DNA from: Bacteroidota bacterium
Lineage (GTDB): Bacteria > Bacteroidota > Bacteroidia > Palsa-965
Direction of reading: 5' to 3'
Length of the DNA stretch: 49,871 nt
Assembly: GCA_021299855.1 (NCBI GenBank)
Contig: JAJTEY010000027.1
Coordinates: 1-49,871 of the forward strand
In this document: one piece after another, positions 33,351 to 41,216 of the stretch
How positions within the stretch are numbered: position 1 is the stretch's first letter
Layout of the letters: every line of letters starts with the position of its first letter
Made by a program: the position numbers and the translations under genes
Notes under the pieces: model-generated
What the model was told of the DNA's origin: nothing
The model's input: only the letters and a program-made list of their open reading frames with translations
Database searches by the model: none

Positions 33351-33424
33351 GGATCGGTAGTTCAGCTGGTTAGAATGCCGCCCTGTCACGGCGGAGGTCG
33401 CGGGTTCGAGTCCCGTCCGGTCCG
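33351..33424 (+). tRNA. tRNA-Asp(GTC)
   Basis: A complete 74-nt cloverleaf. The acceptor stem is GGATCGG with CCGGTCC (one G-U pair) and discriminator G. The D arm contains AGCTGGTTAGA, the anticodon stem is CCGCC/GGCGG with loop CTGTCAC (anticodon GTC at 33385-33387), and the T arm is GCGGG TTCGAGT CCCGT. The 3' CCA is not encoded. A promoter lies upstream and a terminator directly downstream, so it is a single-tRNA transcript. Confidence 0.98.
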
Positions 33425-33427
33425 CAA

Positions 33428-33595: not shown

Positions 33596-33709
33596 GTGAT
33601 TTTAGTTGTTGATTTCGACGGTACGTACTTGAAGAACGATTTTTTCGCTGAACAGTTTTATAAAAAACTTATCGAAAATCCGTCCTATTTACTCTATCAC
33701 GGAATGTAA
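33596..33709 (+). pseudogene. HAD phosphatase-like gene, 5' fragment before frameshift
   Basis: The beginning of a HAD-superfamily protein. From GTG 33596 it reads VILVVDFDGTYLKNDFFAEQF with HAD motif I (DFDGT), then KKLIENPSYLL, and stops at 33707 after YHGM. Homologous-looking sequence continues in another frame (next entry). Such HAD domains often precede, or are fused to, UbiA-family prenyltransferases like the one that follows. The suggested role is removing the 5-phosphate from polyprenyl-phosphoribosyl-phosphate; this is inference from the cluster. Confidence 0.7.
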
Positions 33710-34032
33710 ATCCGACTTATGCAGCTGAACAGCTGGTGCAGCCTACAGTTGCTGAATTTCTTCGCAATCGAAAAGCCCAATACAACAGCATAGTTTTGGT
33801 TACGGCAAGTCCGGAGGATTTTGTGAAACGCATTTTACATAACGACACTACCTTCGATGAAATTCACGGAACGAAAGACGTAAACCTCAAGGGTAATAAT
33901 AAGTTGCAATTCATTCGCGATAAATTCGGTGAGGAGTTCCATTATATCGGGGATAGTTCAGCGGACACACATATTTTTCAAGCAGCCCGAAAAGCTTTTC
34001 GGGTAAAAAACGGCAGCATACATGAACTCTAG
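33706..34032 (+). pseudogene. HAD phosphatase-like gene, 3' fragment after frameshift
   Basis: Continuation of the HAD protein in another frame: VNPTYAAEQLVQPTVAEFL, then motif II SIVLVTASPEDFVKRIL, EIHGTKDVNLKGNNKLQFI with the motif III Lys, and motif IV YIGDSSADTHIF. By comparison with family members from memory, about 15-20 residues between the first fragment and this one seem to be absent. The 3' end overlaps the UbiA start by 11 bases, so the two are probably coupled. All HAD catalytic motifs are present across the two halves. A sequencing or assembly error is therefore a real possibility. Confidence 0.7.
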
Positions 34033-34888
34033 TTTGGCCTTGTTGACGTTGATGCGCCCGAAACACTGGGTGAAGAATTTGCTGATTGCACTTCCGCCGG
34101 TGCTTGCAGGAAAACTTAATCACCCGGACGCGCTAATTCAATTGGCTTTGGGCATGCTGTCTTTCTCACTTATGGCATCGTCCGGTTATATCCTCAACGA
34201 CATTCGCGATATCGATCGTGATCGAGCTCACCCGAAAAAGATGTTGCGTCCTCTGGCTGCTGCCGCAGTAAAACCGCTGCATGCCTTGCTTTTTGCATTG
34301 GCTTTGTTGGGCATTTCCGTGCTCATTTCGTGGCAAATCAGCAAGTGGGCGGTGTTTGTGTTGGGAGTTTATTTTGTTTTGAATTACACCTACTCTACAT
34401 TTCTTAAGGCGCTGAGATTCTTTGATATCGTTGTGTTGAGCTCGTTTTACGTGATTCGTCTATTTTACGGCTCCGTTCTTCTTGATGCAGAATTAACAGG
34501 CTGGTTCCTTGCTACAACAACATTGGCGTTCCTTACGCTCAGCACACACAAGCGCTTTATGGAATGTCTTGTCAGTAAACACGAACAATTGCCGGGACGA
34601 GATTACGTAAAAGCAGACGCCTCATTACTTCAAATTTTCTCTGCCACATATGCGGTTGGAACTTTGGTATTACTCAACATGCACGCGTTCTTTGTATTAC
34701 AAGTGAAATCGCCGGTGTTTTTTGCACTGGTTAATTTATGCTCCGCCGGAATTACTTTCGCCTATTTCGATCACCGCAAAAACCATTCGGATGATCCTGT
34801 AGAACGTGTATTGAAAAACCCGTTGTTACTGGTAATGGGCGCTTTACTGATTGGCGTGTACATTTGGGAAGTAATGACGCACTTATAA
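34022..34888 (+). CDS. UbiA-family prenyltransferase, likely polyprenyl-phosphate phosphoribosyltransferase
   Basis: A 288-residue integral membrane protein with about eight to nine helices. The first prenyl-diphosphate/metal motif is NDIRDIDRDRAHP (about 59-71). The region after it, KKMLRPLAAAAVKP, and the early LMRPKHWVKNLLIALPP resemble decaprenyl-phosphate phosphoribosyltransferase (UbiA/Rv3806c type) rather than quinone-pathway UbiA. The reaction would be PRPP plus polyprenyl phosphate giving polyprenyl-phosphoryl-5-phosphoribose. It lies between the HAD gene and the DprE1-DprE2 fusion, one base before the latter. The substrate assignment rests on motif resemblance plus context. Confidence 0.85.
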   Translation: MNSSLALLTLMRPKHWVKNLLIALPPVLAGKLNHPDALIQLALGMLSFSLMASSGYILNDIRDIDRDRAHPKKMLRPLAAAAVKPLHALLFALALLGISVLISWQISKWAVFVLGVYFVLNYTYSTFLKALRFFDIVVLSSFYVIRLFYGSVLLDAELTGWFLATTTLAFLTLSTHKRFMECLVSKHEQLPGRDYVKADASLLQIFSATYAVGTLVLLNMHAFFVLQVKSPVFFALVNLCSAGITFAYFDHRKNHSDDPVERVLKNPLLLVMGALLIGVYIWEVMTHL

Positions 34889-34889
34889 G

Positions 34890-36911
34890 ATGGAACGGAA
34901 ACGAGAAGTGGTTGCCAACTGGGGGCTGTATCCAAAAACGGAAAGCGTGCTTATTTATCCTGAATCTGTTCAGGAAATTCAGGAAATTGTTACGTCGGGA
35001 CAACCATTAATCGCGCGCGGAAACGGCCGCTGTTACGGCGACGCTTCGTTATCCAATTATATTGTCTCCACAAGCATACTCAACAAAATAATTGATTTCG
35101 ATTCTTCTACCGGGATTATCCGTTGTGAAGCCGGAGTGTTGCTGGATCACATTTTAGAATTAGTGGTTCCGAAAGGTTTCTTTCTGCCTGTAACTCCGGG
35201 AACAAAATTTATTACCGTTGGCGGTGCGCTTGCTTCTGATATTCATGGTAAAAATCATCATGTTGACGGGGTTTTCAGCGATCATGTGACGTATTTTAAT
35301 TTGATTAATGCCACGGGAAATTTAATTACCGTTACTCCCGAAAATGAATTATTTATTCAAACAGCGGGTGGCATGGGAAGAACCGGCATTATCACAGAAC
35401 TGGGATTGCGGCTGAAGCGTATTGAAACATCTTTTATCCGACAACGTGCAATTCGTGCGAAAAATCTGGATGAAATATTTCGATTGTTCGAAGAAAATCA
35501 GGACACCACGTATTCTGTGGCATGGATTGATTGTTTGGCAAAAGGAGAACAACTGGGAAGGTCTGTTTTGTTGCTGGGTGAGCATGCCACGAAAGAAGAA
35601 ATCAAAAATTCAAAGCCACTACAAATTCATCGTGCTCCCGGATTAAAAGTACCATTCATGTTTCCGAAATGGGTATTAAATCCTTTATTTATTAAAATAT
35701 TTAATGCACTTTATTTTAATAAACCCAGTTCTTCCGGAAATGCTATCGTTCATTACGATCCTTACTTCTACCCGCTGGATAAAATCCATCATTGGAATAG
35801 AATTTACGGGAATAATGGATTTATTCAATATCAATTTGTGCTGCCGAAAGAGGTGTCTTACGAAGGAGTGAAAAAGGTTCTGGAGATTTTATCCGAAAAT
35901 AAATTGGGCTCATTCCTGGCGGTATTGAAATTGTTTGGTGCGTCTCACGAAGATCGTTACCTGCATTTTCCGATGAAAGGATACACATTGGCCTTAGATA
36001 TTAAAATTGAATCGCGTATCTGGCCCGTTCTCGACCGTATTGATGAACTGGTAACCGGATACGGAGGAAAAATATATTTGAGCAAAGACGCACGTTTAAA
36101 AAGAGATGACTTCCTTCAACAATACGCCAAAGCAGCTGTAATTCCCGACAGCACCGTTTTTCTATCGCATCAACAAATTCGACTACAAGAAATGGCTGAA
36201 CATCATTTTTTAATTATTGGAGCTAATAGTGATATCGCGCGTACAACTGCGCTGGCTTATCATCAGAAGTATCCTCATGGCAAGTTGATTTTAGCCGCAC
36301 GAGATACGAATGCGTTAAATACATTTATCAGTGCTAATAATTTAAGTTCTTGTGCAACAGCAGTACATGTTGATGTGGAAAATGAACAGGCCCTGTCTTC
36401 TTTCTACACATCTTTACCGAATAAGCCTTCTTGGGTAATGTATGCTGCAGGTGTTTTAATTACGAATGAGGAAGCTCAACAGCATCCGGAATTGTATCGT
36501 CGTAATTTAACTGTAAATTTTACCGCACCAGCTACATTATTAAATTTAATCGTTCATGATAATAATCCGAAACTGGAACGCATCATCGGAATGAGTTCTG
36601 TTGCGGGATTGCGAGGTCGAAAATCGAACTATGCGTATGGAAGCGCCAAAGCCGGTTTTCATGAATTTTTATTCGGATTACGTCAGGACATGAAAGGCCG
36701 AAACGTGATAGTACAAGCCGTAACTCCGGGATTTGTAAAAACAAAAATGACGGCTCATTTGGATCTTCCTAAAAATGCCAACACACCGGAAGAAATTGCC
36801 CATGCAATTATGAAGAACACGACTTCATTTGCTGTTTATCCGAATTTATTCTGGAGAATTATCGCTCTGGTAGTTCGTTTTGCTCCGGAATTTGTAATTA
36901 AAAAATTATAA
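34890..36911 (+). CDS. DprE1-DprE2 fusion: FAD oxidase plus SDR reductase
   Basis: A 673-residue two-domain enzyme. Residues 1 to about 433 are a DprE1-like FAD-linked oxidase (IARGNGRCYGDASLS, VTPGTKFITVGGALASDIHG then KNHHVDG, C-terminal YLSKDARLKRDDFLQQY). From about Met435 a DprE2-like short-chain dehydrogenase follows, with HFLIIGANSDIA, the active-site YGSAKAG and the PGFVKTKM motif. In Actinobacteria these are separate proteins that together epimerise C2' of polyprenyl-phosphoryl-ribose to the arabinose form. Fusion would channel the keto intermediate. ATG 36192 (Met435) could in principle start a separate DprE2, but no promoter element or stop is seen there. Confidence 0.88.
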   Translation: MERKREVVANWGLYPKTESVLIYPESVQEIQEIVTSGQPLIARGNGRCYGDASLSNYIVSTSILNKIIDFDSSTGIIRCEAGVLLDHILELVVPKGFFLPVTPGTKFITVGGALASDIHGKNHHVDGVFSDHVTYFNLINATGNLITVTPENELFIQTAGGMGRTGIITELGLRLKRIETSFIRQRAIRAKNLDEIFRLFEENQDTTYSVAWIDCLAKGEQLGRSVLLLGEHATKEEIKNSKPLQIHRAPGLKVPFMFPKWVLNPLFIKIFNALYFNKPSSSGNAIVHYDPYFYPLDKIHHWNRIYGNNGFIQYQFVLPKEVSYEGVKKVLEILSENKLGSFLAVLKLFGASHEDRYLHFPMKGYTLALDIKIESRIWPVLDRIDELVTGYGGKIYLSKDARLKRDDFLQQYAKAAVIPDSTVFLSHQQIRLQEMAEHHFLIIGANSDIARTTALAYHQKYPHGKLILAARDTNALNTFISANNLSSCATAVHVDVENEQALSSFYTSLPNKPSWVMYAAGVLITNEEAQQHPELYRRNLTVNFTAPATLLNLIVHDNNPKLERIIGMSSVAGLRGRKSNYAYGSAKAGFHEFLFGLRQDMKGRNVIVQAVTPGFVKTKMTAHLDLPKNANTPEEIAHAIMKNTTSFAVYPNLFWRIIALVVRFAPEFVIKKL

Positions 36912-36916
36912 TTCCG

Positions 36917-38947
36917 CTAAAATCGTTGAATCACCGCAGGATCAACAATAACGAATGATCCGTCTCCTTTAAGAAGTTTATATTTAATATATGTTTCCGT
37001 TGGTGGAACAATTGAATTATTAAAATTCCATCGTAAAGCCTGCACTTTTTTAGGTCCATCGGGATGCTTGCGTTCTTTTGTGTCCACATTAAACACCTTG
37101 GTTTCAATCAAACTATCGCCGATAAACAATTCCATTTGTAATTCCAACGGTTGATCATGCTTTTCAATACCACATGCAAACGCAACCAAAGGCTCATCAT
37201 CATGAAACGCCAGCGTTATTTGAGTTCCTTTAACACGGAACACGTGTTCGGATTTTTCAGATTCGCCTGCCCATACATTCGGCTCCGATATCATGATCGG
37301 GAATTCTCTTTTCACATTGCCATCCAAACGCTTATAAATTTGCCAGGAAGGATGACCGTAAGCCGTGATATCATAAAACATAGTATCCAGCGAATACGGA
37401 GGATGTTTGACAACTTCTGTGTAATCGTAGAACTGATGATTAACCGTATAATTCGGACGAAATTCTTTCAAAATCCGGGCTGAATTTCTCTCGTACTTCG
37501 TCACCAGTTTCGAATTCAATCCCGACATGTCCAACACGTAACCTTTGGTATAACGCCCGGGCAAACCGTGCCAGACCATTACAGTGTCTTGCTCGGAAAC
37601 ACGCTGTTCAATGTATCTGCCGATAGTTGCTCGTTCGTATTCAACAGTACTTAAATATTCATCTAACCACCATTTGCCACCGTACACATCGGGAAATAAA
37701 AACAGGAAAAGTGCAAAACCGGTTACGACAGTTGTTCCTGATCTTAACCATAAGTGATCAATCAACCGAAGTAAATACGACAAAGAAATCACCAATTGCA
37801 ATAATAGCAACACATCCGGCAACGCATAATACCACATCATACGTTCGCCTGGATTGTAGAAATAGTACAAAATCATGGTACCGATAAACGAAGCGCCGGG
37901 CAACAAGTAGCGCAACGTATTTCCTAACGACTCCTGATGACGGCGGACGTACGCGAAGACCAACATTATCAATGAACTGATCAGTGTAATCCACAAAACC
38001 GGCAGATAGAAGTCGTCTTTGGCATAACGCACAAAAAAGGGAAACCAATAATCATCCGGATGAAAATGATAATGAATTTTCGCATAAGCCGACTGTGGTA
38101 ACGGGCTTCCGAAAAAATATGTTGCTGCTGCAATCCATGTAACAACCGGCACTACAGCGAAGGTTAGAATATCACGAATGGCTTTTGAATTTAATCGTAA
38201 AGGCCACCACTCGTTGCGGTTTTCAATCAACCAAAATAAGCCAGTAATTACAACCAACGGAACCGCATCCAGTTTAGAAATGGCAGCTAATGCTAATAAA
38301 AACCACATTAAACGTGTACGTTTTTCGTAATACGCCCAGAACGCGCCCGTTACAACAGCAATGTGCATGGGTGATTCCAGTCCTGCTTTCATTACATTCA
38401 GAAAAAACTTACTGCTGACTAATATGATGCCTGTCCAGATTAAGAACTCAATATTCGATTTAGTATTTCCGCGAATAATTCGAATGAGGAAATAAATCAG
38501 CACAACTAAGCCGATAAAAGCTGTACGTCGCAAAGCTTGTTCCGGCAACCACATTCCGGTGGCACAAATAGCACCATTTACCAATCCCTGAAATGCCGAT
38601 GAAATACCGAATACAGGACCATCCGTTGAATTGTACGCATAGAAAAAGCCTTCCTTGAAATTCTCCATGTATCGCATCACGAAGCCGGCATCGTCAAAAA
38701 ATTCTCCCGGATAAACTTTGAAAATTAAAGCTGCCGCTGCGAGTGCAACACCTGCATCTAGCAGTATGTCTAAATTCTTGCTTCGATTGTACAACCATTT
38801 TCCCGCGAAAACTGCAGCAGCACTAACGGCGAGGAATACGGCCTTGAAAAATAAACTAGTATCGCCCCAGTGAAAACCGATAACCAATAGTGCAGGTGCA
38901 AGGATCAGCGCAAGGATGAGCAGCGTTTGTTTAGACAATTGAATCAT
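36917..38947 (-). CDS. GT-C type membrane glycosyltransferase (AftB-like)
   Basis: A 676-residue protein with about ten to twelve transmembrane helices in the first 440 residues and a soluble extracytoplasmic domain in the last 230. In the first outer loop it has FFDDAGFVMRYMENF, with the Asp pair at 85-86. This arrangement is typical of GT-C enzymes and resembles the DDA...RY..N pattern of mycobacterial AftB-type arabinofuranosyltransferases that use polyprenyl-phosphate arabinose. It converges on the DprE1-DprE2 gene (stops five bases apart). It could be the enzyme that uses the donor made by the cluster, but this is inference. Other polyprenyl-sugar substrates are possible. Confidence 0.75.
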   Translation of the reverse strand: MIQLSKQTLLILALILAPALLVIGFHWGDTSLFFKAVFLAVSAAAVFAGKWLYNRSKNLDILLDAGVALAAAALIFKVYPGEFFDDAGFVMRYMENFKEGFFYAYNSTDGPVFGISSAFQGLVNGAICATGMWLPEQALRRTAFIGLVVLIYFLIRIIRGNTKSNIEFLIWTGIILVSSKFFLNVMKAGLESPMHIAVVTGAFWAYYEKRTRLMWFLLALAAISKLDAVPLVVITGLFWLIENRNEWWPLRLNSKAIRDILTFAVVPVVTWIAAATYFFGSPLPQSAYAKIHYHFHPDDYWFPFFVRYAKDDFYLPVLWITLISSLIMLVFAYVRRHQESLGNTLRYLLPGASFIGTMILYYFYNPGERMMWYYALPDVLLLLQLVISLSYLLRLIDHLWLRSGTTVVTGFALFLFLFPDVYGGKWWLDEYLSTVEYERATIGRYIEQRVSEQDTVMVWHGLPGRYTKGYVLDMSGLNSKLVTKYERNSARILKEFRPNYTVNHQFYDYTEVVKHPPYSLDTMFYDITAYGHPSWQIYKRLDGNVKREFPIMISEPNVWAGESEKSEHVFRVKGTQITLAFHDDEPLVAFACGIEKHDQPLELQMELFIGDSLIETKVFNVDTKERKHPDGPKKVQALRWNFNNSIVPPTETYIKYKLLKGDGSFVIVDPAVIQRF

Positions 38948-38997: not shown

Positions 38998-39213
38998 TTA
39001 ATTCTGACTAGATCGATACGCTTTCCACTCAATGATAACTAACGTCATTACGACCACAATTTCGCCCGCACTAAATGCAATTCCCCAATGTGTTATGTTA
39101 TTGTCGGTTAGTATTAACAGCAATGTGCCGATACAAAATGCCGTATTTAGCAAGATGAGTGCGAGTAAGGTTTGTTTTGATGATAAATTCAGGTATTCAT
39201 GAAACCATCCCAA
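38998..39213 (-). CDS. Small membrane protein, 3' part after an in-frame stop
   Basis: 71 residues from a TTG, with two predicted transmembrane helices (LLALILLNTAFCIGTLLLIL and FSAGEIVVVMTLVIIEW). It is in the same frame as the preceding 54-residue peptide and separated from it by one TAG (39216-39214). Together they give one four-helix protein that resembles a small Bacteroidetes membrane family of about 125 residues. This part is probably the C-terminal half of a broken gene, not a real separate gene, although reinitiation is possible. Confidence 0.5.
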   Translation of the reverse strand: MGWFHEYLNLSSKQTLLALILLNTAFCIGTLLLILTDNNITHWGIAFSAGEIVVVMTLVIIEWKAYRSSQN

Positions 39214-39378
39214 CTAAGAAAAGAGTAACGCAAAACTGCCCAACAACCAAGGTATCGGAGCAGATATGCCAAACGAATCAGGATTTGTTCCAATGAGTAA
39301 CCACCACAATAATCCGCTAATTGTTGCTCCGATGGCATCGAGACGAATCAGGCTAGAAGGCGATTTTTTTTGAAACAT
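39214..39378 (-). pseudogene. Small membrane protein, 5' part before an in-frame stop
   Basis: From ATG 39378 it encodes 54 residues: an N-terminal FQKKSPSSLIRLDAIGATI, then a hydrophobic segment with WWLLIGTNPDSFGISAP, ending PWLLGSFALLFS and TAG. The ATG directly abuts the TAA of the outer-membrane protein gene. The same frame continues past the TAG into the next entry. The probable intact product is about 126 residues with four helices and unknown function. Confidence 0.5.
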
Positions 39379-40400: not shown

Positions 40401-41216
40401 TTATTCTTTACCAAACATTTCCATCACCTCATTGCTGATACCGGTATTTGAATATCCGCCATCGTGATATAAATTCTGCATGGTTACCATACGACTCATA
40501 TCCGAGAACATGAGTACACAGTAATCCGCACAAGCATTCGCATCGGCATTGCCTAATGGTGAAATTTTATCGGCGTAATCGTAGAAATCACCAAAACCTT
40601 TAATACCGCTACCTGCAGTAGTTTTAGTTGGAGACTGTGAAATCGTATTCACACGCACGTGACGATGCTTTCCGTAATGATAACCAAAGCTACGCGCCAC
40701 CGACTCCAACATGGCTTTGGCATCTGCCATGTCCGTGTAGAACGGATAAGTACGTTGTGCAGCGATATAAGACAATGCTACTACTGAACCCCATTCATTG
40801 ATGGCATCCATATTATAAGCAACACTCAGCATTTTATGCAAGGACATTGCACTTACGTCTAATGACTTCTGATAGAAATCGTAGTTCAATCCGGTGTAAG
40901 GAATGTTCTTACGAATATTTGGAGACATCCCTATAGAATGTAACACGAAATCAATCTTACCACCCAAATGCTCTGTTGCTCCTTCAAACAAAGCTTTCAG
41001 CTCATCCATGTTGGTAGCATCTGCAGGAATAATTTTGGAGTTGGTGCTTTCTGCCAACTTATTGATTTCACCCATGCGCATGGCAATAGGTGCATTCGTC
41101 AGCACAAATGATGCGCCTTCAGCATGACATTTTTCAGCCACTTTCCAGGCAATTGAATTTTCATCTAAAGCTCCGGAAATAATACCGCGCTTACCTTTTA
41201 ATAATTGATGTGACAT
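40401..41216 (-). CDS. fabI: Enoyl-[acyl-carrier-protein] reductase (NADH)
   Basis: Reduces the trans-2-enoyl-ACP double bond, the last step of each fatty acid elongation cycle. The 271-residue SDR has catalytic Tyr160 and Lys167 spaced Y-x6-K (YTDMADAK), with the additional Tyr150 in ALSYIAA, a pattern typical of FabI. The N-terminal cofactor site is GIISGALDENSIAW and the loop is SQSPTKTTAGSGI. It is monocistronic, with a promoter element 22 bases upstream and a terminator downstream. Confidence 0.96.
   Translation of the reverse strand: MSHQLLKGKRGIISGALDENSIAWKVAEKCHAEGASFVLTNAPIAMRMGEINKLAESTNSKIIPADATNMDELKALFEGATEHLGGKIDFVLHSIGMSPNIRKNIPYTGLNYDFYQKSLDVSAMSLHKMLSVAYNMDAINEWGSVVALSYIAAQRTYPFYTDMADAKAMLESVARSFGYHYGKHRHVRVNTISQSPTKTTAGSGIKGFGDFYDYADKISPLGNADANACADYCVLMFSDMSRMVTMQNLYHDGGYSNTGISNEVMEMFGKE

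Follow-up and report, generated by a model that had tools for sequence, protein, structure and literature searches.

We analysed a stretch of 49,871 nucleotides (contig JAJTEY010000027.1 of assembly GCA_021299855.1, hereafter the window) from a Bacteroidota bacterium of the Palsa-965 lineage, whose draft genome comprises 2.08 Mb in 88 contigs and is 72% complete. A module at positions 33596-38947 carries an interrupted HAD phosphatase gene, a UbiA-family gene, one open reading frame (ORF) for a fused DprE1-DprE2 protein and, on the opposite strand, the gene of a large membrane protein resembling GT-C glycosyltransferases (Table 1). The UbiA, DprE1-DprE2 and GT-C ORFs are all open and of full length. 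The GT-C ORF is convergent with the DprE1-DprE2 ORF, with 5 nucleotides from stop to stop, and thus lies outside the operon of the putative donor genes; the four genes described as lying together in the initial annotation, which had been made from the sequence alone, are therefore neighbours but do not share an operon.

Table 1. Features of the module and its upstream border (positions in the window).
Feature	Position	Strand	Basis
tRNA-Asp (gtc)	33351..33425	+	ARAGORN; directly upstream of the cluster
HAD phosphatase gene, first piece	33596..33709	+	GTG start, DFDGT motif, stop at end
HAD phosphatase gene, second piece, other frame	33664..34032	+	later HAD motifs, PF12710 E 6.2e-6
Putative UbiA-family polyprenyl-phosphate phosphoribosyltransferase, 288 aa	34022..34888	+	PF01040, 8j8j match, NDxxDxxxD at 59, KRxxE at 177
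Fusion of DprE1 (7-414) and DprE2 (439-673), 673 aa	34890..36911	+	profile and PDB matches, motifs
GT-C-like membrane glycosyltransferase (putative), 676 aa	36917..38947	-	DD 85-86, C-terminal extension 546-676, apparently uncatalogued family

The UbiA protein matched PF01040 in Pfam and, in NCBIfam, the HAD-UbiA model PRK08238.1 (E-value (E) 6.9e-55) and the decaprenyl-phosphate phosphoribosyltransferase models (4.6e-45 to 4.6e-34); quinone and heme models reached 8e-12 or weaker. Its top match in the PDB was 8j8j, a decaprenyl-phosphate phosphoribosyltransferase of the Rv3806c family (E 5.5e-26). The two motifs of polyprenyl-phosphate phosphoribosyltransferases are present as NDIRDIDRD at residue 59 and KRFME at residue 177, and a second UbiA of the same genome, L003, retains the first motif and lacks the KR..E motif; L001 is a third UbiA of the genome. 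In ORF15 of Citrobacter youngae the residues equivalent to these motifs (N, D, D, D, R, E) were mutated, and the R and E mutants are described as retaining activity (PMC11127046). Taken together, the sequence comparisons support a UbiA of the polyprenyl-phosphate phosphoribosyltransferase (Rv3806c) type; the quinone type was rejected on the NCBIfam scores and the top solved match. A tree of 34 rows (32 different, with two identical pairs; eight duplicate loci and the loci L001 and L003, which had no match, were omitted) joined the window protein to two HAD-UbiA rows with an SH-aLRT support of 95, on an end branch of 5.54 that is too long to rely on.

The single 673-residue ORF downstream combines a DprE1 half that matched NF053785 (3.7e-110) with a short-chain dehydrogenase/reductase (SDR) half that matched the DprE2 model NF053786 (5.8e-30), and among solved structures, too, the first half had its top match in DprE1 and the second in DprE2 (21gq_C, 2e-13). 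The DprE1 half contains the FAD domain, resembles solved DprE1 over its length and retains KNHH (121) and the SKDAR lysine (398), residues conserved in DprE1. The cysteine that benzothiazinones hit in mycobacterial DprE1 aligns with an alanine. In the DprE2 half, the SDR domain carries the YxxxK motif SSVAGLRGRKSNYAYGSAK at residue 569. The same fusion was found in L020, L021, L022, L024, L064 and L098, i.e. in 7 of 33 DprE1 rows counting the window, a figure that is not a rate, as the rows are mostly best-scoring loci and L064 was added for being fused. An assembly artefact was rejected on account of these six other loci, which come from three other families of the class and from Fluviicola. 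A quick tree of the 33 rows required five changes between fused and unfused labels, two of them forced by starred branches. The window DprE1 grouped with rows of its own class, apart from the sole proteobacterial row, so a gain from Proteobacteria is unsupported, although no starred set of this quick tree contains it. Searches of open-licence PMC papers found no DprE1-DprE2 fusion named and nothing on DprE1 with DprE2 in Bacteroidetes.

Of 395 genomes sampled from the class, 57 gave a DprE1, 72 the window-type UbiA (E 1e-12) and 54 both, and in 36 genomes the two genes lie within 4 kb of each other (Fisher test for co-occurrence, 6e-47). That 54 of the 57 DprE1 genomes also carry this UbiA, 36 of them in close proximity, makes the donor assignment firm; judged by gene company and motifs, the module very probably encodes the synthesis of a polyprenyl-phospho-arabinofuranose donor. 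The initial annotation had named a UbiA-family membrane protein and a combined DprE1 and DprE2 protein and had read them as the source of a polyprenyl-phospho-furanose; both proteins proved real, the comparisons with Rv3806c and across related genomes came out in its favour, and its donor is the best reading of the locus. DprE cassettes of the class (e.g. L059, L062 and L064) share the UbiA-DprE1-DprE2 content, fused in some, and differ from the window in that five of the nine loci L058-L066 (L059, L060, L061, L062 and L064) have a HAD gene after DprE2, followed in turn by a large membrane protein, PMT_2-like or unassigned. No HAD gene was found in L058, L063, L065 and L066. Within the order, DprE (E 1e-30) and GT-C (E 0.001) were not found in the 11 other genomes examined; two of these, G002 from the genus of the window and G011 from its family, have a window-type UbiA, which lies in a different cluster, and no DprE1 was found in either.

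Other surroundings of this UbiA type were also noted. At L132:5619-10074, from the same family, it is accompanied by a methyltransferase, a 343-aa unknown protein, a HAD protein and a 451-aa unknown protein, and stands about 3 kb from a 78% homologue of the window gene 40401-41216, which by eye looks enoyl-ACP-reductase-like and lies close to the module; L131 and L130 resemble L132 by ORF sizes only. At L127:7774-12574 (genome G302) a fused HAD-UbiA has a PMT_2-like membrane protein on either side, one of them under the Pfam cut-off, and the genome yielded no DprE1; this locus is possibly a ribofuranose system.

The HAD gene preceding UbiA in the initial annotation was confirmed only in part, as it is split: the DFDGT piece with the catalytic Asp and the later HAD motifs lie in different frames, with a stop codon at 33707-33709 between them. 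A tblastn search with the G302 HAD-UbiA placed residues 13-38 of the query at 33602-33679 and residues 73-171 at 33736-34026 (39% identity), suggesting a HAD of the HAD-UbiA kind. The gap between the two pieces measures 34 residues (102 nucleotides) in the homologue versus 56 nucleotides in the window, which is therefore about 46 nucleotides short; with the Trinickia HAD-UbiA as query the same two pieces were recovered, about 49 nucleotides short. The break could be a real loss or an error of the draft assembly. Two further HAD (PF12710) matches in the genome are weak and under the family cut-off. Given the interruption, the suggestion that this HAD stands in for the Actinobacterial 5-phosphate phosphatase could not be upheld.

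The GT-C-like protein (676 residues) shows nine hydrophobic segments on a simple scale. It matched no Pfam family, and in NCBIfam only weakly the model AZOBR_p60025 (7e-4, 18.9 of the 150 bits required). A scan of an 84,980-species collection with two peptide patterns returned 16 GT-C loci, the nearest in a Fluviicola genome (52% identity). Three of the 14 aligned proteins gave a weak match to LA_3751/LA_3752, a model of a putative glycosyltransferase (best E 0.062), and a profile built from the 14 rows, run against the PDB with E up to 10, retrieved no glycosyltransferase chain. All 14 aligned proteins, the one of the window among them, have the pair D85-D86; for AftB, too, a DD motif is reported to contain the catalytic Asp (PMC12041299). 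The short forms L070 and L072 lack residues 546-676, indicating an added C-terminal part, and L077 is cut by the contig end. In profile comparisons the protein reached a probability of 1.2% with the membrane proteins of the class DprE cassettes and 6.8% with a PMT_2 set of three proteins, two of which stand beside the HAD-UbiA of G302. Three features thus suggest membership in GT-C, namely the hydrophobic segments, the invariant Asp pair and a single corresponding gene layout, and the family appears uncatalogued in Pfam, NCBIfam and PDB. Of the GT-C enzyme with an outer-loop Asp pair proposed at the outset, the ORF and the Asp pair stand, while the GT-C class found no match in the libraries; the suggested relation to AftA-D and Emb was not borne out, as no solved arabinosyltransferase was matched by sequence.

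A putative link between the GT-C protein and the donor genes comes from Trinickia terrae, in which a GT-C relative (L080) is convergent with DprE2, DprE1 and a fused HAD-UbiA, flanked at either end by a GtrA gene (1.4e-7 and 1.2e-17). Chance hardly accounts for this convergent layout recurring in two phyla, though it is a single case. DprE1 is present in 5 of the 12 genomes of the class that have the GT-C family (p 0.019). With moderate confidence we pair the GT-C protein with the donor pathway. In the mechanism that we consider probable as a whole, UbiA would join the phosphoribose of phosphoribosyl pyrophosphate to polyprenyl phosphate, and the 5-phosphate would be removed by a phosphatase, once the upstream HAD and, with this gene interrupted, now another phosphatase of the cell or none. 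The fused DprE1-DprE2 would then oxidise and re-reduce C2 of the ribose within one polypeptide, giving polyprenyl-phospho-D-arabinofuranose; a flippase would move it outward, and the convergent GT-C protein would transfer the arabinofuranose to an envelope glycan through its outer-loop DD pair. The chemistry, the flippase, the GT-C pairing and the acceptor are what we infer, and the UbiA and DprE1/DprE2 identities and the broken HAD are read from the sequence.

Several observations weigh against this mechanism, the interrupted HAD among them. All three donor enzymes fall below the NCBIfam equivalog cut-offs: UbiA with 186.6 of 351 (PRK08238.1) and 153.9 of 207 (PRK12324.1-4), DprE1 with 369.2 of 500 and DprE2 with 104.7 of 250; the general SDR model PRK07102.1 (8.1e-53) outscores the DprE2 model. 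That DprE1 and DprE2 are thus defined by sequence similarity could allow the finished pentose to be a furanose other than arabinofuranose, which we regard as very improbable, as both halves of the C2 epimerase are present and have DprE1 and DprE2 as their top solved matches. GtrA was the flippase family searched for and was not found in the 72% complete genome, and no flippase was recognised by eye at the locus. Among the 16 GT-C loci only L080 adjoins DprE2, DprE1 and HAD-UbiA, and the other 15, several of them short, have no UbiA or DprE1 nearby. Without the window, the association with DprE1 drops to 4 of 11 GT-C genomes (p 0.056). Seven of the 12 lack DprE1 and six also lack this UbiA, some of these genomes being incomplete, and among nine further GT-C genomes, which hold those of the 16 loci that the 12 do not already cover, DprE1 (E 1e-25) was found only in Fluviicola and Trinickia, the other seven lacking it. 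Together with the opposite strand of the GT-C gene and with the nearest relative, Fluviicola, whose DprE genes lie on a separate contig, these counts favour a real donor pathway beside an independent GT-C neighbour that uses another lipid-linked sugar. We hold this to be the less probable case, a minority view by some distance, as the convergent layout recurs in another phylum; the initial proposal that the GT-C enzyme uses the donor is accordingly backed by the Trinickia terrae locus but not by most class genomes with the family. Within a sample of 150 genomes of Trinickia's family, GT-C was found in two, Trinickia included. The other carries two tandem, distant GT-C relatives (25-28%) on a contig of 8.9 kb without donor genes (L096, G488:C116).

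The module may also be decaying, having lost its phosphatase so that the finished donor is not made; as this reading shares ground with the others, the likelihoods given here need not add up. Here no single frame holds both the Asp nucleophile and the other motifs of a HAD-type phosphoribose phosphatase, the gene is shortened, a small membrane ORF adjoining GT-C likewise contains a stop, the UbiA end branch is very long, and DprE and GT-C were not found in the 11 other genomes of the order. We nevertheless consider decay unlikely: UbiA, DprE1-DprE2 and GT-C remain open at full length, UbiA, DprE1 and DprE2 retain the motifs that were checked, the HAD break could be an assembly error, and the D18A HAD mutant of ORF15 is reported to have still formed some product (PMC11127046).

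A pathway of this kind is already known outside Actinobacteria: PMC11127046 (2024) describes HAD and UbiA synthases, DprE1/DprE2 homologues in the arabinofuranose cases and GT-C enzymes in Gram-negatives, and 'Bacteroid' is absent from its main text. D-arabinofuranose polymers in Gram-negatives are described for Pseudomonas pilin (PMC10115798) and Devosia (PMC8707391), and a search of open-licence PMC papers found nothing on a D-arabinose furanoside in Flavobacterium O-polysaccharide. The module has in common with the three-component pentofuranose systems of C. youngae O1/O2, as PMC11127046 presents them, a HAD and a UbiA phosphoribosyltransferase, an epimerase step and a GT-C; it differs in its separate and interrupted HAD, its fused DprE1-DprE2 and the lack of a flippase recognised at the locus. 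The GT-C protein is not placed in GT136 (C. youngae ORF12), no GT136 sequence having been part of the comparison. With the mycobacterial decaprenylphosphoryl-arabinose pathway (Rv3806c, Rv3807c, DprE1, DprE2, Rv3789, Aft/Emb) it shares homologues of UbiA, DprE1 and DprE2 and the DD pair as in AftB, whereas a HAD takes the place of Rv3807c, the epimerase is fused and the GT-C protein has no sequence match to Aft or Emb. In L080 the HAD is intact and fused to UbiA, DprE1 and DprE2 are separate, and two GtrA genes are present. The window variant is thus distinguished by a fused DprE1-DprE2, an unclassified GT-C and a damaged phosphatase.

Around the module, the upstream tRNA-Asp is possibly the insertion point of the cluster. 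Base composition showed no island (GC 0.416 in the module versus 0.425 in the window). A flavin reductase adjoining the cluster has 45-49% matches in three of six congeners; no tRNA-Asp was found around these homologues in the stretches compared, nor was an empty site. Directly upstream of GT-C, a small hydrophobic ORF on the minus strand (39001-39378; four helices by eye) is interrupted by an in-frame TAG, and neither of its two pieces matched a Pfam family.

At L052:2221-10831 a GT-C relative directly follows the genes for MreB, MreC, a 171-aa ORF without Pfam match, PBP2 and RodA, and L055 has the same arrangement judged by gene order and size only. On a tentative and rather doubtful extension, the GT-C protein would found a new family of polyprenyl-phosphate pentofuranosyltransferases whose donor varies by genome, thinly spread over Bacteroidota, Omnitrophota, Krumholzibacteriota and Burkholderiaceae, and the copies directly after mreB-mreC-PBP2-rodA would hint that some Bacteroidota decorate a wall-linked glycan with arabinofuranose in a mycobacteria-like manner. 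The uncatalogued family could be assayed. The recurrent DprE1-DprE2 fusion fits the view that both act as one unit, and DprE1 is a tuberculosis drug target. With DprE1 and its UbiA partner together in 54 of the 395 class genomes, D-arabinofuranose may be more widespread in the envelopes of Bacteroidota than the small number of Gram-negative structures seen in print would indicate.

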